NCBI GenBank assembly: GCA_024228575.1
Contig: JAAETH010000548.1
Location: 1 to 46,490 of the forward strand
Length of the DNA stretch: 46,490 bases
Direction of reading: 5' to 3'
DNA from: Actinomycetes bacterium
Lineage (GTDB): Bacteria > Actinomycetota > Acidimicrobiia > Acidimicrobiales > Poriferisodalaceae
Program-made: the position numbers and the translations under genes
The notes under the pieces: model-generated
Seen by the model: only the letters and a program-made list of their open reading frames with translations
Databases searched by the model: none
Told to the model about the DNA's origin: nothing
Shown: piece after piece, positions 1 through 42,978 of the stretch
Numbering within the stretch: position 1 is the stretch's first letter
How the letters are laid out: each line of letters begins with the position of its first letter

Positions 1-52
<52 letters not shown>

Positions 53-28206: not shown

Positions 28207-28917
28207 TCATGTTGCCCTCTCGACCATCTTGATGAGGTGAAGCGACCACAGGGTTCCGACCAGTGAAAGGGCGACACCCGACAGAGTCGTCGAGCGGATG
28301 TTGACCGAGGTCCAGTGCGCCGACAGACCGTCTCCGCCGAATCCGCCCAGGACCGCTGCACCCCAGGGCAACACGGCAAGTGCCAGGGCCGACGCTGTTG
28401 CCTGGGCAGCCTGTGCTGAGATTTCGCCGCGACGCAGGCGGCGTTCGCGCAGTGTCCGTGCAGCTGCGGCAAACGTTGGTTCGGCGTCGGAGACCCGATC
28501 CGCGGCCAGTTCTATCGAAGCCCCTAGGAAACGAACATCGACCTCCGAGTGAGACCGCAGCGGACCCAGAGCATCGACGTAGGGCAACCCCAGTTCCAGT
28601 CCACGGAGAACCGACTCGAGCTCGCCCCTGATGCCGGGGACGAGCTGAGCTCTGGCGGCGAGGGCGTGGGTCAGCTGCTGCCCGGCGCCCATGCGCCTGG
28701 CGGCCTCGTCAGCGAGCTCGGGAAGCCCCTTCAGGGTCCGGGAAGATTGGCGGCGAGCAACAAGCACCGTCGACACACGCCAGATGAGCAATATGTCGAG
28801 GGTGAGGATGCCCGCCCACAGTTGACCGAACGTTAGCCCCACAACAAGCGGGATCGACACGACGCGCAGTCGGCGAACCCTCGCCAGCAGGACCAGGCCA
28901 GCGATCACTACGAACAC
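28207..28917 (-). CDS. tadB: TadB-like pilus membrane protein
   Basis: A 236-residue protein with an N-terminal hydrophobic pair of helices, a central T2SF domain (LPELADEAARRMGAGQQLTHAL ... SIELAADRVSDAEPTFAAAARTLRERR) and C-terminal membrane segments (LSGVALSLVGTLWSLHLI). GTG 28917 overlaps the tadA 3' end by 10 nt, indicating an operon. It is the partner of TadC. Confidence 0.8.
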   Translation of the reverse strand: MFVVIAGLVLLARVRRLRVVSIPLVVGLTFGQLWAGILTLDILLIWRVSTVLVARRQSSRTLKGLPELADEAARRMGAGQQLTHALAARAQLVPGIRGELESVLRGLELGLPYVDALGPLRSHSEVDVRFLGASIELAADRVSDAEPTFAAAARTLRERRLRRGEISAQAAQATASALALAVLPWGAAVLGGFGGDGLSAHWTSVNIRSTTLSGVALSLVGTLWSLHLIKMVERAT

Positions 28918-29999
28918 ACAAACGCCTCGAGCGACCGGGACGGGGCAACGTCGACCAATTGGCGGCGCCCGTCTTGGCCGGGGGCGACAACGGCTACGAG
29001 ATCGAAGGCTTCGAGCAACTGCTCGGTCTCGGGATCGCCGCCGCGTGGCGCCGCACCGTGATCACACAGTGACCACAATCGCCTGAGCGCTCCGGCGGTC
29101 GATGCGGCGTGGATCGATGCCAATCCTCCCCGATGACCTGTGTTCAGAGCCTGTACGAGCCCCCTGGCTTCGCGGCCCCTGACCTCGCCGACCACGATGC
29201 GGTCGGGTCTGAGGCGCAAGGCCAGCCTGACCAGGCTCTCGAGATCTATCGGGAGATCGGTGGGCGACTCGGCTCGTGTGACCAGCCTGGCCACATCGGG
29301 GTGTGTTGTGTTCACCTCGGCCGTGTCCTCGATGAGCACCACTCGGTCGTCGGTGGGAACAAGGTCGATGAGAGCGCCTATGAGGGTCGTCTTGCCCGCC
29401 CCGGTCGGTCCGGCGATGAGAACCGATTCTCCAACGGCCACAGCGTCGACCAGACGTTCGATAAGCCCTCGTCTCGACTCGTCGAACGAGCCGATCCCGT
29501 GGAGATCTGTGCGAAATCGGCGGATCGCTATCAATGGTCCGCCGGTCGCTACGGGAGCGACGGCCACGGTGACCCTGTGACCCGCCGGCAGCACACACTC
29601 GAGCACGGGGGCGCGAGCATCGGGACGGCGCCTTGCCAGAAGGGCAATTCGATCGACGAGCAACCTGACCCCGTCGGAGTCGAGGACGATCGAAGAGAAC
29701 TCGAGATGGCCCGCTCGCTCGACCCTGACTCGGCCGGGGCCGTTGATGAGGATGTCCGAGATGTCGGAAGCGACGAGAAGTGGTTCGATCTCGCCCAACC
29801 CCACCAATCGGCGCCGCGTAGACGCGACGACGGCATCGACGCCTTCTTGGCCGAGCCAGGGTGCAGCCTTGGTCGCCATCGAGGCAAGGACATCTGGTGC
29901 CTCGACACCGCCGAGAGCAGCCTCGCGGTGAAGCGATGAAACAAGAACGGACAGCTCGCCCACAACCGACGCTGAGTCGTCGGCAACCGGCTGGGTCAC
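28908..29999 (-). CDS. tadA: TadA/CpaF-type secretion ATPase
   Basis: A 363-residue type II/IV secretion system ATPase driving Tad pilus assembly. Features: N-terminal segment IEPLLVASDISDILINGPGRVRVER, Walker A GPTGAGKTT (197-205), Asp box VVLIEDTAE, Walker B RIVVGEVRG and His box LNTGHRGGLASIHA. GTG 29999 has GGGAGG 5 nt upstream. It heads the operon tadA-tadB-tadC-flp-tadE; selC is transcribed from just upstream on the same strand. Confidence 0.92.
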   Translation of the reverse strand: MTQPVADDSASVVGELSVLVSSLHREAALGGVEAPDVLASMATKAAPWLGQEGVDAVVASTRRRLVGLGEIEPLLVASDISDILINGPGRVRVERAGHLEFSSIVLDSDGVRLLVDRIALLARRRPDARAPVLECVLPAGHRVTVAVAPVATGGPLIAIRRFRTDLHGIGSFDESRRGLIERLVDAVAVGESVLIAGPTGAGKTTLIGALIDLVPTDDRVVLIEDTAEVNTTHPDVARLVTRAESPTDLPIDLESLVRLALRLRPDRIVVGEVRGREARGLVQALNTGHRGGLASIHAASTAGALRRLWSLCDHGAAPRGGDPETEQLLEAFDLVAVVAPGQDGRRQLVDVAPSRSLEAFVCS

Positions 30000-30100
30000 G
30001 GCATCCTCCCGAAGAGGTCGAAGTACTTCTCGAGGGGGAAGTCGAGTTCTTCGGGGGAGGTTGTGGTCGACCCTACCGAGGGTCGAGCGCGGAGGCAACG

Positions 30101-30196
30101 TGGCGGAGGCGGACGGGAATCGAACCCGCCGGACGGGGATCTCCCGTCCCACCCGCTTTGAAGGCGGGGGAGCCCACCAGGCGCTCAGACACCTCC
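30101..30196 (-). tRNA. selC: tRNA-Sec (anticodon TCA)
   Basis: A 96-nt tRNA read on the minus strand, CCA-encoded. It has a GGAGGTG/CGCCTCC acceptor stem, a long variable arm (GGACGGG/CCCGTCC with a short loop), a T arm with TTCGATT loop, and an anticodon stem CCCGC/GCGGG enclosing loop CTTCAAA. The anticodon UCA, complementary to positions 30159-30161, reads UGA. The long variable arm and extended acceptor/T helix identify selenocysteine tRNA rather than Ser or Leu. It pairs functionally with selA and selB found 10 kb away. Confidence 0.95.
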
Positions 30197-30203
30197 ATCA
30201 GGG

Positions 30204-30209
30204 AATATA
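30204..30209 (-). promoter_or_regulatory. TATATT promoter box of selC, 7 nt before mature 5' end
   Basis: A near-consensus -10 hexamer TATATT lies exactly 7 nt upstream of the first base of tRNA-Sec. Transcription may therefore begin at, or within a base or two of, the mature 5' end. No good -35 is visible. Confidence 0.55.
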
Positions 30210-30397: not shown

Positions 30398-30413
30398 CAC
30401 CCCTTTCGGGGTG
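30398..30413 (-). terminator. hairpin after sigma factor gene
   Basis: CACCCC-TTTC-GGGGTG forms a 6-bp stem 11 nt beyond the stop of the sigma factor gene. There is no U tract, so terminator function is tentative. Confidence 0.35.
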
Positions 30414-30423
30414 TCACCGGTGA

Positions 30424-31374
30424 TCAGACCGACAAGAGGTCGCGCGCTCCCGTGTCGCTCGACGGGTGGCGAAGCTTCGACATCGCCCTTGCTTCGATCT
30501 GGCGAATGCGCTCGCGCGTGAGGCTGAAGTGTTCGCCGACCTCCTCGAGCGTGCGAGGTTCGCCTCGGTCGAGACCGAAACGGAGCTTGAGGATCTCTCG
30601 TTCGCGCTCGTCGAGCGGGGCGAGCAGCCGGTTGATCTCTTCGGGCAGCAGGGCTGTGGCGGCAACTTCGAAAGGTGATTCGGCGGAGCGATCTTCGACA
30701 ACATCGCCGAGCTCGGCGTCGCCGTCTTCGCGGAGTGGCTCGGAAAGCGAGAGCGGTTCGGCAGCGAAGCGCAATGCTTCGGTGACCTTGTCTTCTGGCA
30801 TCTCGACCTCGGCCGCAAGCTCTGAGAGTGTGGCCGGGCGGCCCATCTTGAGCTCCAACCGCGAACGTGCCTTCTGCAGGCGCGCAAGGGTGTCGCCTGC
30901 GTGGACCGGAAGCCGAATGGTACGCCCGGTGTTCGCGATGCCGCGGGTGATGGCCTGCCTGATCCACCACGTTGCGTAGGTCGAGAACTTGAATCCCTTG
31001 CGCCAGTCGAACTTCTCGACCGCATGCATGAGGCCCAGGTTCCCTTCCTGGATGAGATCGAGGAGGGGAAGACCCGATGCCTGATACTTCTTGGCGATCG
31101 ATACGACCAGGCGGAGGTTCGACTGCACAAACGTGCGCTCGGCCTCTTCACCGGCGCGCGACGCCTTGCGGGACTCGCGCTTCTTGGCTGCGGTCAGCGG
31201 CTTGCCCTCTGCACAACAACCACGGTCGAGCACCTCGCGTGCGTCATTACCGGCCTCGATTGCCTGGGCGAGCCTCACCTCGTCGTCCTTGGTCAACAGC
31301 GGGTATTGGCCGATGTCGGTGAGATACAGTCGGACGAGGTCTTCCTCGTCTCGTTCGACCCGCTCCTTGGCCAC
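30424..31374 (-). CDS. RNA polymerase sigma factor, group 1/2 (RpoD/HrdB-like)
   Basis: A 316-residue sigma-70 factor. Region 1.2 DLVRLYLTDIGQYPLLTKDDEVRLA, region 2 NLRLVVSIAKKYQASGLPLLDLIQEGNLGLMHAVEKFDW and FSTYATWWIRQAI, region 3 around GRPATLSELAAEVEM, and region 4 LDEREREILKLRFGLD with ERIRQIEARAMSKLR are all intact. It lacks the long acidic region 1.1 of principal factors, so it may be a group 2 sigma. GTG 31374 has AGGAG 9 nt upstream. A TAGAAT -10-like box lies near 31505-31510 on the same strand. Confidence 0.92.
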   Translation of the reverse strand: MAKERVERDEEDLVRLYLTDIGQYPLLTKDDEVRLAQAIEAGNDAREVLDRGCCAEGKPLTAAKKRESRKASRAGEEAERTFVQSNLRLVVSIAKKYQASGLPLLDLIQEGNLGLMHAVEKFDWRKGFKFSTYATWWIRQAITRGIANTGRTIRLPVHAGDTLARLQKARSRLELKMGRPATLSELAAEVEMPEDKVTEALRFAAEPLSLSEPLREDGDAELGDVVEDRSAESPFEVAATALLPEEINRLLAPLDEREREILKLRFGLDRGEPRTLEEVGEHFSLTRERIRQIEARAMSKLRHPSSDTGARDLLSV

Positions 31375-31637: not shown

Positions 31638-32651
31638 TCAGGCGAGAGCGCTGCAGACCGTCTCGGTCATCAGGGTCGCCAGAACGTATGGGTCGGCATT
31701 GGCGTTGGGACGACGATCTTCGATGTAGCCCTTCTGATCCTGCTCGACCTGCCACGGGATACGAATCGAGGCGCCACGGTCGGACACGCCGTAGCTGAAC
31801 TGGTCGTAGCGCTGGGTCTCGTGGGCGCCGGTGAGGCGATCCTCGATGCCCACGCCGTAGCCGGCCAGGTGTTTCTCAGGCACGCCGGGCTGCCCGAGTG
31901 CCTCACACGCAGCGATGACGGCGTCGTATCCCTCGCGCATGGCCTTGGTCGAGAAGTTGGTGTGCATGCCCGCGCCGTTCCAGTCGCCCTTCATGGGTTT
32001 GGCGGCCAGAGACATCTCGAGATTGTGCTCCTCGCCGACGCGATACAGCAGGTATCGGGCGATCCAGATGTGGTCGCCGACGGCGACGGTGTCAACCGGT
32101 CCAATCTGGAACTCCCACTGACCCGGCATGACCTCGGCGTTGGTGCCAGAAATCATCAGGCCGGCGTCGATGCAGAACGACGTGTGCTCCTCGACGAACT
32201 CGCGGCCGTGGATCTTCACCGCGCCGACACCGCAGTAGTACGGGCCCTGGGGAGCAGGGAAGCCGTTGGGCGGGAAGCCGGCAGGCCAACCGGTGTGCGG
32301 ATCGATCATCGTGTATTCCTGCTCGAGGCCGAACCAGGGCTCCTGGTCCTCGAACTTCTCGAGGGCCTCCCTGGCCTTGGCTCGGGTATTCGTCGGGTGC
32401 GGGGTCACCTTGTCGGTGAGGAAGGTCTCGCACAGGACCAAGATGTCGTCGCCCCCGCGGATGGGATCCGGGCATTGAAAGACCGGCTTGAGAACCACAT
32501 CGGAGTTGTCGCCGGTTGCCTGGTTGGTGCTCGACCCGTCGTAGCCCCAGATTCCGGGCTCGTCTCCATTCTGAAGAACCCTGGTCTTCGACCGGATCTC
32601 CGAAGTGGGCTCGACACCGTCGATCCACAGGTATTCAGCGCGATACGCCAC
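31638..32651 (-). CDS. glnII: glutamine synthetase type II (GSII)
   Basis: A 337-residue eukaryote-like glutamine synthetase that condenses ammonia and glutamate using ATP in the cytosol. GSII features include YLWIDG, IWGYDGSSTNQATGDNSDVVLKP (in pieces), FGLEQEYTM, GTNAEVMPGQWEFQIGP, and NGAGMHTNFST. Length matches GSII (about 340) and not GSI. GTG 32651 has GGA 7 nt upstream. It is divergent from glnA; glnR follows glnA, suggesting common nitrogen control. Confidence 0.95.
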   Translation of the reverse strand: MAYRAEYLWIDGVEPTSEIRSKTRVLQNGDEPGIWGYDGSSTNQATGDNSDVVLKPVFQCPDPIRGGDDILVLCETFLTDKVTPHPTNTRAKAREALEKFEDQEPWFGLEQEYTMIDPHTGWPAGFPPNGFPAPQGPYYCGVGAVKIHGREFVEEHTSFCIDAGLMISGTNAEVMPGQWEFQIGPVDTVAVGDHIWIARYLLYRVGEEHNLEMSLAAKPMKGDWNGAGMHTNFSTKAMREGYDAVIAACEALGQPGVPEKHLAGYGVGIEDRLTGAHETQRYDQFSYGVSDRGASIRIPWQVEQDQKGYIEDRRPNANADPYVLATLMTETVCSALA

Positions 32652-32757
32652 TGCTCGTCCTTCGATAGTTCAGGTCCGGGCCGTCTGGCCGGACGCGCAG
32701 CACCTTGCTGCTCTGTGTCCATCATGGCGTCACCGGATTTCACCCACATTGCCCGAA

Positions 32758-32775
32758 TGTGAACGCAGTGTGAAC
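32758..32775. promoter_or_regulatory. 11-bp-spaced direct repeat, candidate GlnR/PhoP-type operator
   Basis: Two TGTGAAC copies (32758-32764 and 32769-32775) are spaced one helical turn apart. On the complementary strand they read GTTCACA-N4-GTTCACA. This resembles tandem sites of OmpR-family regulators (PHO-box-like, GlnR-like). They sit between glnII and glnA, about 50 nt before the glnA start. Assignment is inference. Confidence 0.45.
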
Positions 32776-32813
32776 CGGTGCTCCAGCCCTTCCAACACCG
32801 GCTTCGAGGAGTC

Positions 32814-32819
32814 GACAAT
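32814..32819 (+). promoter_or_regulatory. GACAAT box 6 nt before glnA start
   Basis: GACAAT lies exactly 6 nt upstream of ATG 32826, a one-base variant of the TANNNT leaderless box. Confidence 0.35.
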
Positions 32820-32825
32820 GGAGTC

Positions 32826-34160
32826 ATGGAACGTCGAACCGACTACGTGATGCGCAAGGTCGAGGACCGCGGGGTCCGCCTCGTGCGACTGCTGTTCACC
32901 GACGTGCACGGGCAGCTCAAGTCCCTGAACATCGGCCCCACCGAGCTCGAGACCGCGTTCGAAGAAGGCATGTTGTTCGATGGCTCGTCGATCGACGGTT
33001 TCAGCCGCATCGCCGAGGAGGACGTTCTGGCCCGTCCCGACGCGAACTCGTTCCAACTGCTGAACTGGAACGACAGCGACGAGCGAGTGGGTCGCATGTT
33101 CTGCGATATCGAATCCGCCGACGGTGAAGCCTTCGAAGGTGACACCCGCCAGGTCCTTCGGCGTCAACTCGACAGGGCTCGAGAACTGGGATTCACCTTC
33201 TTCGTCGCTCCGGAACTCGAGTACTTCTTGTTCCAGGATGGCGACCCATCAACACCGCTCGTACCCCTCGACTCGGGTTCCTACTTCGACCTGACGACGG
33301 CTGACGTCGCCAGCTCGATCAGGCAGCGCACCCTTCAGGCCCTCGAGAGCATGGGCATCAGCGTCGAATACTCGTTCCACGAGGACGCACCCAGCCAGCA
33401 CGAGATCGACCTGCGCTACACCGATGCCCTCACCATGGCCGACAACGTGATGACCTTCCGCCTCGTGGTGAAGGAGATCGCCATCGAACACGGGGTACAC
33501 GCAACCTTCATGCCCAAGCCGATGGCAGCACACCAGGGCTCGGGCATGCACACCCATCTGTCGTTGTTCCGAGGTGACAAGAACGCCTTCCACGACCCCG
33601 ACGGCGAGGCCGGTCTCACACCGGTGGCAAGACAGTTCATGGCCGGACTGTTGCGACACGCGTCCGACATCACAGCGGTCACGAACCAGTTGGTCAATTC
33701 CTACAAACGTCTGGTCCCAGGGTTCGAGGCTCCTGTCTCGATCTCGTGGGCTCGCTCGAACCGCGCCGCTCTCATCAGGGTGCCCTCGATAAAGAAGGGC
33801 AAGCCAGATTCGGCCCGGATCGAATACCGGGCACCCGATCCAGCCTGCAACCCGTACCTGACCTTTGCGCTTCTACTCGCCGCAGGGCTCGATGGGGTCG
33901 AGAACAAGTACGAACCACCCTCGGAGGCGCCCAAAGACCTGTTCAAGATGACGTCGGCCGAGATGTCGGCCGCCGGCCACGGCCCGCTACCCGACTCGTT
34001 GGGTACCGCACTCGATCGTCTGGAGGCCTCACAGCTCGCCCAAGACGTACTCGGAACACACCTCTTCGAATGGTTCGTCAGAAACAAACGTGCCGAATTC
34101 GCCGACTACAAGACGCAGGTCTCACAATTCGAGCTGGACCGCTACCTACGCAACGTGTGA
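32826..34160 (+). CDS. glnA: glutamine synthetase type I
   Basis: A 444-residue GSI. It shows MLFDGSSIDGF, the metal/active site region FFVAPELEYFLF, HEDAPSQHEIDLRY, FMPKPMAAHQGSGMHTHLS, the ATP region LVPGFEAPVSISWARSNRAALIRVP and RIEYRAPDPACNPYLTFALLLAAG. Length and the lack of an adenylylation-type NLYDLPPEE tyrosine motif fit the alpha-type GSI or a GlnA2-like paralogue, so regulation by adenylylation is unlikely. ATG 32826 is used because the family N-terminus (DYVMRKVEDRGVRLVRLLFTD) follows immediately. It is followed after 11 nt by glnR. Confidence 0.94.
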   Translation: MERRTDYVMRKVEDRGVRLVRLLFTDVHGQLKSLNIGPTELETAFEEGMLFDGSSIDGFSRIAEEDVLARPDANSFQLLNWNDSDERVGRMFCDIESADGEAFEGDTRQVLRRQLDRARELGFTFFVAPELEYFLFQDGDPSTPLVPLDSGSYFDLTTADVASSIRQRTLQALESMGISVEYSFHEDAPSQHEIDLRYTDALTMADNVMTFRLVVKEIAIEHGVHATFMPKPMAAHQGSGMHTHLSLFRGDKNAFHDPDGEAGLTPVARQFMAGLLRHASDITAVTNQLVNSYKRLVPGFEAPVSISWARSNRAALIRVPSIKKGKPDSARIEYRAPDPACNPYLTFALLLAAGLDGVENKYEPPSEAPKDLFKMTSAEMSAAGHGPLPDSLGTALDRLEASQLAQDVLGTHLFEWFVRNKRAEFADYKTQVSQFELDRYLRNV

Positions 34161-39527: not shown

Positions 39528-39916
39528 CAGATCTCCTCGATGTCCCAGATCACTCGGCGGGTGAACCGGCGTCCCAACCAGCGCCGTATGACAGCTCGGA
39601 TCGGAGGGATCAACAATGACAGGCCGACGGCGTCGCTCAGGAATCCGGGGGTCAACATCAGGGTGCCCGCCACCAGGATGAGCACGCCGTTCACCAACTC
39701 GTCCGTGGGAAGTTCGCCCACAGACAGCTGCTGTCGAATTCGCGTCAACACCCCCGTGCCCTGGTGGCGCACCAGCCACGCTCCCGCAACGCTGACGAGA
39801 ACCAGCAACGCGAGGGTCGGGAACACGCCGACCGACGATCCGACCTGAATGATGACGGCCAGCTCAAGGATCGGGACGATGATGAAGGCCGCGAACAGCA
39901 CGACGACCAGTGACAT
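39527..39916 (-). CDS. fxsA: FxsA family membrane protein
   Basis: A 129-residue membrane protein with FxsA features: N-terminal helix (VVVLFAAFIIVPILELAVIIQVGS), second helix (PTLALLVLVSVAGAWLVRHQG), then LTPGFLSDAVGLSLLIPP and a basic C-terminus. The molecular function is poorly defined. ATG 39916 has TAGGCT 7 nt upstream. It is divergent from selA with about 60 nt between them. Confidence 0.88.
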   Translation of the reverse strand: MSLVVVLFAAFIIVPILELAVIIQVGSSVGVFPTLALLVLVSVAGAWLVRHQGTGVLTRIRQQLSVGELPTDELVNGVLILVAGTLMLTPGFLSDAVGLSLLIPPIRAVIRRWLGRRFTRRVIWDIEEI

Positions 39917-39923
39917 GCAGGCG

Positions 39924-39929
39924 AGCCTA
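39924..39929 (-). promoter_or_regulatory. TAGGCT leaderless promoter box of fxsA
   Basis: TAGGCT lies 7 nt before ATG 39916. It is back to back with the selA box at 39966-39971. Confidence 0.5.
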
Positions 39930-39965
39930 CCGACGTGCCCATTGTCAGCAACAGCGCACCGTCCG

Positions 39966-39971
39966 TAACCT
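39966..39971 (+). promoter_or_regulatory. TAACCT leaderless promoter box of selA
   Basis: TAACCT lies exactly 7 nt before GTG 39979, which favours that start over the in-frame ATG at 39973. Confidence 0.5.
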
Positions 39972-39978
39972 TATGGGT

Positions 39979-41250
39979 GTGCGCCCTCCCTCCGTAGACG
40001 CCCTCGCCCGGTCGCGAGCCGACAGTCACCTGCCTCATCCGCTGCTGGTGGAAGCGGCCAGATCGGCCATCGCCGACGGAGCACACGAGCAGTTCGATGC
40101 CTACGTCGAACGAGTCGAGCGGCGACTCTTGAGTCGTGTCATCAACGCCACGGGTGTGCTGCTACACACAAACATGGGCCGCGCCCCTCTGGCGACGAAC
40201 CGAAACGCCGGCTACACGAACCTCGAGCTCGACCTCGACACCGGCGCCCGGGGCAGCCGCCAGGAGCGCGCAGGCCTGTTGCTCGCCAAGGCGTGCGGCG
40301 CAGAAGCGGCGATCGTGGTCAACAACTGTGCCTCGGCGGTGATGCTCGGTCTCGCCGCAGTAGCGAAGGGGTCGGGAGTTCCGGTGTCGCGCGGCGAACT
40401 GGTCGAGATCGGTGGCGGTTTTCGCGTGCCAGAAGTCCTCGAGCAGTCGGGATGTCGTCTGGTCGAAGTCGGCACCACAAATCGCACCCGCCTGGCAGAC
40501 TTCGAGCGAGCCATCGCCGAGAACCAAGACATCGCCGCCGTCCTGAAGGTTCATCCCAGCAACTACCGCATCGAAGGTTTCCAGCAATCGGTGGGTGTGA
40601 AAGCCCTGTCGACACTGGGTGTTCCACTCATCGTCGATCTCGGGAGTGGACTGCTCGACGAGGCGTGCCCATGGCTCGAGGGTGGACGCCCCGGCTGGTT
40701 ACTCGACGAGCCCGCGGTCCGCCAGACGCTCGACCAGGGTGCCGATCTCGTCATGTTCTCGGGTGACAAGCTGCTGGGAGGACCCCAGTCGGGCATCATC
40801 GCCGGGCGTGCAGAGATGGTCGAACGCTGTGCTCGCCATCCGCTCATGCGAACATTTCGCCCCGGCGACCTGGTCATCGGAGCACTGCAGGATGTTGCAC
40901 TCGCGTACCTTCGTCGCGATGGTGATGCGATCCCGTTCTGGGCGATGGCCACGATTCCCCAGCCGGTTCTGAGTCGGCGCGCCGAGGCGATCGTCGCCGC
41001 GTCGGGTATCGGGATGGTCGTCGATTCCGAAGCCACCCCCGGAGGAGGATCACTCCCGACGGCCACCATCGCCTCGGCCGCCATCGAGATCGCTGGCGAC
41101 CACAGCACCGAGTTGCGCGATCACACAACCCCGATCATCGCCCGGGTGCACGAGGGCAGAACCCTTCTCGACCTTCGCACGATCGACCCCGCCGACGACG
41201 CGATCATCACCTCGGCCCTCGCTGCGTCCAGGCTCGAAGGGCTCGCGTAG
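39979..41250 (+). CDS. selA: L-seryl-tRNA(Sec) selenium transferase SelA
   Basis: A 423-residue PLP-dependent enzyme that converts seryl-tRNA(Sec) to selenocysteyl-tRNA(Sec) using selenophosphate. Signature segments: RPPSVDALARS at the N-terminus, RVINATGVLLHTNMGRAPL, VVNNCASAVMLGLAA, RGELVEIGGGFRVPEVLEQSG, HPSNYRIEGF and the PLP-lysine region MFSGDKLLGGPQSGII with Lys264. Slightly short of the E. coli enzyme (463), mainly at the N-terminus. GTG 39979 is set by the TAACCT box. It is followed 9 nt later by selB. Confidence 0.95.
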   Translation: MRPPSVDALARSRADSHLPHPLLVEAARSAIADGAHEQFDAYVERVERRLLSRVINATGVLLHTNMGRAPLATNRNAGYTNLELDLDTGARGSRQERAGLLLAKACGAEAAIVVNNCASAVMLGLAAVAKGSGVPVSRGELVEIGGGFRVPEVLEQSGCRLVEVGTTNRTRLADFERAIAENQDIAAVLKVHPSNYRIEGFQQSVGVKALSTLGVPLIVDLGSGLLDEACPWLEGGRPGWLLDEPAVRQTLDQGADLVMFSGDKLLGGPQSGIIAGRAEMVERCARHPLMRTFRPGDLVIGALQDVALAYLRRDGDAIPFWAMATIPQPVLSRRAEAIVAASGIGMVVDSEATPGGGSLPTATIASAAIEIAGDHSTELRDHTTPIIARVHEGRTLLDLRTIDPADDAIITSALAASRLEGLA

Positions 41251-41259: not shown

Positions 41260-42978
41260 GTGCACGTCGTCGCGACCGCAGGCCATGTCGATCATGGGAA
41301 GTCAACCCTTGTCCGCGCCCTGACCGATATCGATCCCGACCGGCTGGCAGAGGAGAAGGCGAGAGGTCTGACCATCGATCTCGGCTTCGCCTGGACGAAA
41401 CTGCCCTCTGGCCGCGGCATCAGCTTCATCGACGTTCCCGGTCACGTCAGGTTCATCAAGAACATGCTCGCCGGCGTCGGCGCAGTCGATGCCTGCCTGT
41501 TCGTCGTCTCGGCGGTCGAGGGTTGGAAACCACAGTCCGAGGAACACCTTCGCATCCTCGAGATGCTCGGCCTGGAAGCAGGTGTGGTCGCCCTCACCCA
41601 GGCCGGTTTGGTCGACAACGATCTGCTCGAACTGGCCCATCTCGACATCACCGAACACGTCGAAGGTACCTTTCTCGAGGATGCGCCGATCATCGCCGTC
41701 GACAGCATCGACCGGACCGGCATCGACGACCTCTTCGCCGCTCTCGACGACCTGACAGCAACCGTTCCAACCGCTGCAGACCACAAACGTCCACGCCTGT
41801 GGATCGACAGGGCGTTCGCTGCCAAGGGTGCTGGGACCGTCGTCACGGGCACCCTCACGGGCGGGATGCTGCGCGTCGATGACGAGGTGACCATCGAACC
41901 CCAACACACCCGCGCTCGGGTCAGGGCGGTGCAATCTCTCGGCAACGAGAGGACGAAGGTAGGTCCTGGCAACCGCGTGGCTCTCAACCTCTCCGGCATC
42001 GACCGCTCCGATGTCGGCCGCGGCGATGTTGTCGTGTTCGACGGACAGTGGCACCGCACCCAACGTGTCGACGCAGAACTTCGGGTTCTCGACCGCCTCG
42101 ACCACGAGGTGTCGCGGCGGGGTGCATATGCGCTGTACCTGGGATCGGCCGAGGTGCCGGTTCGGATGCGCATTCTCGGTCCGGCAGCACTGCTACCGGG
42201 CGAGACAGGACCGGTTCGGCTGCATCTCGAAAAGGAACTACCCCTGCTGCCTGGAGATCGGTTCGTGATCCGAGAGTTCGGCAGAGACGAGACGGTCGGC
42301 GGGGGTCAGATTCTTGATGTGGCCCCGGTCCTTCCGGCGTCTCGCTCTCACCCCGACCGCTCCGTTGATCGGGTCGTCAGCGAACGGGGATGGGTCGATG
42401 CGGACGAACTCGTGCGTCTCACCGGCGAACGACGTCCCCCGGATCTGGGGAATTGGGTCGTCGATCCGACCGAGCTGGCGAGACTGACCGAGTCGGTTCA
42501 CACCGCGGTCGAGTCGAGCGGCGATCGTGGTGTCGACATCGCCTCGTTCGACGAACGGCAGCGAGCCGTGCTCGATCGGTTGGGGGACATCGTCATCGAC
42601 GCCGGTCTCGTCCGACTGGCCGGCACAAGCGACGTCTTCTCGGACCACCCATTCGTGGCAGCCGTCGACGCTTCGCCGTTCGCACCACCCGACCCAGACA
42701 ACGTTCCCAGCGACGAACTACGAACCCTCGTCCAGCGCAAGCAGCTCGTACATCTGGACGGGCGCTACTTCACCCCGGCAGCCATCGAGAAGACCGCAAC
42801 AGCGATTGCCCACATGTTGAGCGACAATCCCGAAGGGGTCACCGTCTCGGAGGTCCGCGAGCGACTCGGCAACACCCGCAAACACGCGCTGCCATTGCTC
42901 GGCCACCTGGATGCGACCGGAGTTACAAGACGGAGAGACGACGTCAGAATCGCCGGTCCCCGATTGCCTGAGGTCTAG
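41260..42978 (+). CDS. selB: selenocysteine-specific elongation factor SelB
   Basis: A 572-residue GTPase that delivers Sec-tRNA(Sec) to UGA codons followed by a SECIS hairpin. G1 GHVDHGKST (8-16), switch region EEKARGLTIDLGFAW, G3 DVPGH (58-62) and the SelB-typical VEGWKPQSEEHL are normal. The expected NKxD/TKAD G4 motif reads TQAG (113-116), lacking both the Lys and the guanine-recognising Asp. EF-Tu-like domains II/III and the C-terminal winged helices for SECIS binding (TATAIAHMLSDNPEGVTVSEVRERLGNTRKHALPLLGHL, in pieces) are complete. It ends in a 4-nt convergent overlap with whiB. Confidence 0.94.
   Translation: MHVVATAGHVDHGKSTLVRALTDIDPDRLAEEKARGLTIDLGFAWTKLPSGRGISFIDVPGHVRFIKNMLAGVGAVDACLFVVSAVEGWKPQSEEHLRILEMLGLEAGVVALTQAGLVDNDLLELAHLDITEHVEGTFLEDAPIIAVDSIDRTGIDDLFAALDDLTATVPTAADHKRPRLWIDRAFAAKGAGTVVTGTLTGGMLRVDDEVTIEPQHTRARVRAVQSLGNERTKVGPGNRVALNLSGIDRSDVGRGDVVVFDGQWHRTQRVDAELRVLDRLDHEVSRRGAYALYLGSAEVPVRMRILGPAALLPGETGPVRLHLEKELPLLPGDRFVIREFGRDETVGGGQILDVAPVLPASRSHPDRSVDRVVSERGWVDADELVRLTGERRPPDLGNWVVDPTELARLTESVHTAVESSGDRGVDIASFDERQRAVLDRLGDIVIDAGLVRLAGTSDVFSDHPFVAAVDASPFAPPDPDNVPSDELRTLVQRKQLVHLDGRYFTPAAIEKTATAIAHMLSDNPEGVTVSEVRERLGNTRKHALPLLGHLDATGVTRRRDDVRIAGPRLPEV

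Follow-up and report, generated by a model that had tools for sequence, protein, structure and literature searches.

Promoter geometry predicts a leaderless selenocysteine tRNA in Acidimicrobiia

Introduction

The selenocysteine tRNA gene (selC) of an actinomycete of the Poriferisodalaceae appears to carry its own housekeeping-sigma promoter, with a -10 element set so that RNA polymerase would start at the first base of the mature tRNA (G1) or no more than one base away from it. Its primary transcript would then have no 5' leader and begin as pppG1, leaving RNase P without a substrate at the 5' end and the 3' end alone in need of processing. Production of tRNA 5' ends in bacteria is regarded as a universal task of RNase P; a leaderless selC would mean that one tRNA sidesteps RNase P in bacteria that contain it, that it is the same tRNA as in eukaryotes, and that promoter architecture is tied to the unusual acceptor stem of this tRNA. 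Initiation at G1, the triphosphate end and the escape from RNase P are what I infer from sequence comparison; the reading leads one to expect tRNA-Sec with a 5' triphosphate in bacterial groups that can be named, and it makes the question of why tRNA-Sec is made differently a testable one.

The gene and its -10 element

The window, by which I mean the whole stretch of 46,490 nucleotides that was analysed, makes up one of the 960 contigs of a 6.15 Mb genome. Within it, selC occupies 30101-30196 on the minus strand, starts with GGAGG, encodes CCA at its 3' end and carries the anticodon UCA (tca in the ARAGORN call), and besides its fold it scores 66.8 bits against the RF01852 covariance model, whose gathering score is 47, which places it among the bacterial tRNA-Sec genes. 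The gene shares the window with selA (39910-41250, plus strand; TIGR00474, 392.8 bits against a cut-off of 267.9) and selB for the selenocysteine-specific elongation factor (41260-42978, plus strand; TIGR00475, 281.2 bits against a cut-off of 242.25) and so is part of a selenocysteine system that appears to work, the three genes lying within 13 kb although on opposite strands. Elsewhere in the window, a tRNA truncated by its left end (1-52, minus strand) matches RF00005 with 29 bits, at the threshold, and two glutamine synthetase-like reading frames lie back to back on opposite strands at 31638-34160. A mechanically called reading frame for a TadA-type ATPase (28908-30152, minus strand) begins inside the tRNA-Sec gene, and the true start of this ATPase is probably downstream of the tRNA.

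The sequence-only reading of this DNA had noted a near-consensus TATATT ending 7 nt before G1, and the hexamer is indeed there: on the minus strand it runs from 30209 to 30204, starting at -13 relative to G1, and is followed by a 7-nt discriminator, CCCTGAT (30203-30197), which is pyrimidine-rich at its start and ends in T at -1, and then by G1 at 30196. The box region reads ...GCGGCTATATTCCCTGAT and then GGAGGTG or, spelled out, ...CCGGCAGCGGC TATATT CCCTGAT GGAGGTG.... TATATT agrees with TATAAT at 5/6 positions, retaining the A at -11 and the T at -7, and it has the form TANNNT that is the actinobacterial -10 consensus (PMC12288462; PMC3848588). In 246 kb of the organism's own genome, drawn from stretches of it and counted on both strands, TAnnnT makes up 0.08% of sites, and hexamers that match TATAAT at 5/6 positions or better account for 0.008%, rare enough that a chance match at one set position is unlikely. 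Of the two hexamers of a housekeeping-sigma promoter, the window offers no recognisable -35 match near TTGACA, and TATATT provides what marks such promoters in Actinomycetota, a TAnnnT -10 at start-proximal spacing; many mycobacterial promoters have a degenerate -35 element or lack one, and it is hence not strictly required (PMC12288462). That TATATT is the -10 element of selC is nearly certain.

Conservation across the class

An RF01852 search of 395 genomes of the class Acidimicrobiia found tRNA-Sec in 261. Upstream regions of selC loci from the order and the class were aligned on the mature 5' end, as placed by ARAGORN and, where a gene started one or two bases off, slightly corrected without regard to the box, and near-copies were dropped at 75% identity, leaving 91 Acidimicrobiia genes. 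This is the alignment that the sequence-only reading had proposed for its 7-nt spacing, and it bears the spacing out: TAnnnT starts at -13 in 67/91 genes and at any other position in at most 6, in a set chosen partly by match score and in which common ancestry remains after dereplication, whereas 500 shuffles averaged 0.7 at -13 and nowhere exceeded 5. Widening the position to -14 to -12 brings the count to 76/91, and the box at -13 is present in 26/30 families and 54/69 genera sampled, with T at -13 conserved in 76%, A at -12 in 76% and T at -8 in 84% while the remaining upstream sequence has diverged; a -35 element showed no clear enrichment among these genes. Four of the 30 families are without the box at -13. 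In one family (f15), most members have it at about -17, as in ordinary tRNAs (loci L041, L043, L051, L054 and L057), which makes this family a natural experiment for the loss of leaderlessness.

Other tRNA genes as a control

Placement of the box at -13 as a general property of tRNA genes was considered and rejected on two control sets. The first drew 95 genes for other tRNAs from five of the Acidimicrobiia genomes, the organism's own included, and only 4/95 have a box at -13 (6/95 within -14 to -12; Fisher p = 6e-25 for selC against these controls at -13). Most of their boxes lie between -15 and -21 and peak at -17, and 38/95 have no recognisable box. The second set, 57 tRNA genes of eight genomes from other lineages whose selC is of the leaderless type, gave 2/57 at -13 and no peak. 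When leaders were predicted by a simple weighting of my own that uses published start-site weights, control tRNAs with a box mostly received 3-9 nt and tRNA-Sec mostly 0 nt (72/91). Most other tRNAs of the Acidimicrobiia genomes thus appear to keep short leaders, and leaderlessness is largely specific to selC.

The four exceptions at -13 are tRNA-Ser(CGA), tRNA-Ser(UGA) and tRNA-Arg(UCU) of the own genome (L002, L003 and L377, respectively) and a tRNA-Tyr of another (G107). The tRNA-Arg(UCU) of a further genome (G002, locus L389) has its TAnnnT at -12. A few other tRNAs (Arg UCU, Ser CGA, Ser UGA) may therefore be leaderless or nearly so.

Where transcription would start

Distances between -10 elements and start sites in these bacteria can be gauged from their leaderless mRNAs. 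In the own genome, again sampled as stretches, candidate start codons are preceded by TAnnnT 9 times at -14, 9 times at -13 and 7 times at -12, against about 1-2 elsewhere, and in G002 the peak runs from -15 to -12, the candidate starts in both being mechanical calls, not curated genes. The bases around the expected start point the same way. Polymerase favours a purine start after a pyrimidine, and among the 108 dereplicated selC loci of all lineages with the box at -13, base -1 is C or T in every one, compared with 126/185 of the others (p = 3e-14). Of positions 6-9 past the -10 element, G1 alone completes a pyrimidine-purine (YR) step in 86/108 of these loci, the window included, and +2 is G in 104/108. 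Published rules have positions 6, 7, 8 and 9 used at 8, 55, 29 and 7%, with a purine start and G at +2 preferred, and pyrimidine-rich discriminators such as CCT move the start downstream (PMC5730371). It counts against a start at G1 that in E. coli transcription begins most often at position 7 and not at 8; the discriminator here begins with CCCT, fitting the downstream shift, and G1 (30196, minus strand) is at position 8. Because ruler geometry, YR initiator and published start-site rules agree, the start is expected at G1, and together the geometry and initiator support a leaderless tRNA-Sec.

The explanation that competes best is a minimal leader, in which the first transcribed base lies 1-2 nt before G1, A-2 (position 6) being one candidate, and the resulting dinucleotide is trimmed off by RNase P. 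A study of Propionibacterium acnes puts the centre of TAnnnT at an average of -9 from the start (PMC3848588), a distance that allows such a leader and would put the selC start near -1 or -2; base -2 is moreover a purine in 78/108 loci, and short leaders seem to be usual for the other tRNAs of these genomes. However, the invariable pyrimidine at -1 (position 7) disfavours a start there, only about 8% of starts fall at position 6 (PMC5730371), a start at A-2 would leave the strict pyrimidine at -1 unexplained, and the leaderless-mRNA ruler centres on -13, so that a minimal leader is unlikely. The sequence-only reading had suggested a start at the mature 5' end, and this has gained strong comparative support (67/91 against 4/95, together with the YR initiator), while the exact base is one that I infer; on this comparison of sequences, the main start of selC is probably G1 or a base directly next to it.

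A second explanation accepts the box as real and has selC made mainly by read-through from the gene upstream, RNase P processing a long precursor. That gene encodes a primary-like sigma factor of the RpoD/SigB group (30424-31374, minus strand), scoring 379.5 bits to the NCBIfam RpoD profile, under that profile's curated cut-off, and it lies on the same strand as selC, about 230 nt away. Directly 3' of it, though, the sequence folds into a strong hairpin, CACCCC-GAAA-GGGGTG (30398-30413, minus strand), with a GAAA loop and without a T run, which is possibly a terminator setting the sigma gene apart from selC. The box is also retained in 26/30 families although the adjacent upstream sequence diverges, and read-through as the main source of selC is very improbable. 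That TATATT lies near selC by chance and without function, for which only the absent -35 hexamer would speak, is as good as refuted by the comparative data, with one exact position occupied in 67/91 genes against about 0.7 expected from the shuffles.

Spread beyond the class

Among 67 dereplicated selC genes of other Actinomycetota, 17 have the box at -12 and 14 at -13; the mycobacterial loci L266 and L282 are without a box at -13. Chloroflexota have tRNA-Sec in 113/151 genomes, and their selC genes have the box at -13 in 9/41 and within -14 to -12 in 14/41 (about -17 in L466, L476, L490 and L491). For 8/9 of those at -13, a hexamer matching at least 4 positions of TTGACA is present, in 7 of them 17 bp upstream, as in TTGACA-N17-TACAAT-N7-GAGAG, and these -35 hexamers support the box at -13 as a real -10 element. 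In a mixed sample of other bacteria, 11/81 have it at -13 where 1.4 would be expected; among them are gamma- and deltaproteobacterial records and one member of the Desulfovibrionaceae. One genome of the survey with tRNA-Sec (that of L319) also has an ARAGORN tRNA-Pyl beside other tRNAs (L436). The enterobacterial selC of Atlantibacter (L280) has a TATAAT far upstream, implying a longer leader, and this, together with the family whose box is at about -17 and the four families without it at -13, indicates that leaderlessness is not obligatory.

RNase P and the acceptor stem

Loss of RNase P as the cause of a leaderless selC was considered and dropped, since RNase P RNA was found in 19/20 relatives, including all 17 high-quality ones. 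It was not found in the organism's own fragmented metagenome-assembled genome, which is most likely an assembly gap. A likely reason lies in the tRNA itself, whose 8-bp acceptor stem is an exception among RNase P products (PMC11143913): compared with the usual 7 bp, it would call for an atypical cleavage, and a start at G1 would fix the 5' end without one. Whether mature tRNA-Sec also keeps its triphosphate and never meets RNase P deserves a lower weight, because a pyrophosphohydrolase could still convert the end, and I would hold that part only tentatively, at somewhat less than an even chance. The broader proposition, that across several bacterial phyla tRNA-Sec matures independently of RNase P and retains its 5' triphosphate as in eukaryotes, the 8-bp stem making cleavage risky, is likewise possible but falls a little short of being the probable one; if true, leaderless selC would be a recurrent and possibly ancient bacterial solution.

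Comparison with known systems

A search confined to open full-text literature found no report of bacterial tRNA genes read without a leader, nor of a leaderless or triphosphate-bearing bacterial tRNA-Sec. The passages found in differential RNA-seq papers on P. acnes, S. coelicolor, H. volcanii and C. difficile give no tRNA-Sec starts, and those on the first two attribute tRNA 5' ends to RNase P (PMC3848588; PMC4681348). Leaderless mRNAs are common in Streptomyces (PMC4681348), and in the same genomes as selC those of actinobacteria have their TAnnnT between -12 and -14 relative to the first coding base, just as selC has before G1; they differ in that the product of selC is a structured tRNA, with the benefit in 5' maturation rather than translation.

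In E. coli, the selC leader is cut by RNase P to give the 8-bp acceptor stem. The tRNA-Sec there is orthologous (RF01852) and shares that stem, whereas the leader implied for Atlantibacter sets the enterobacterial arrangement apart. In Nanoarchaeum equitans, promoter placement likewise gives tRNA transcripts that start at the mature 5' end (PMC10941002; PMC10100707), but there RNase P is missing and leaderless tRNAs compensate for it (PMC10941002), while in the present case RNase P RNA is in 19/20 relatives, the boxes of other tRNAs lie mostly at -15 to -21 and largely one gene is concerned.

Eukaryotic tRNA-Sec is transcribed by Pol III from +1, carries a 5' triphosphate and goes through no RNase P step. 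The tRNA is the same and so is the predicted outcome, a start at the mature end without RNase P; the polymerase and the promoter are different, the special upstream promoter in eukaryotes having been reviewed (PMC8362101), and in the bacteria the triphosphate is a prediction. The bacterial and eukaryotic forms of leaderless tRNA-Sec are probably convergent, and leaderless selC, as its sequence would have it, may be seen as a variant of known phenomena, the leaderless tRNAs of Nanoarchaeum and the tRNA-Sec of eukaryotes.
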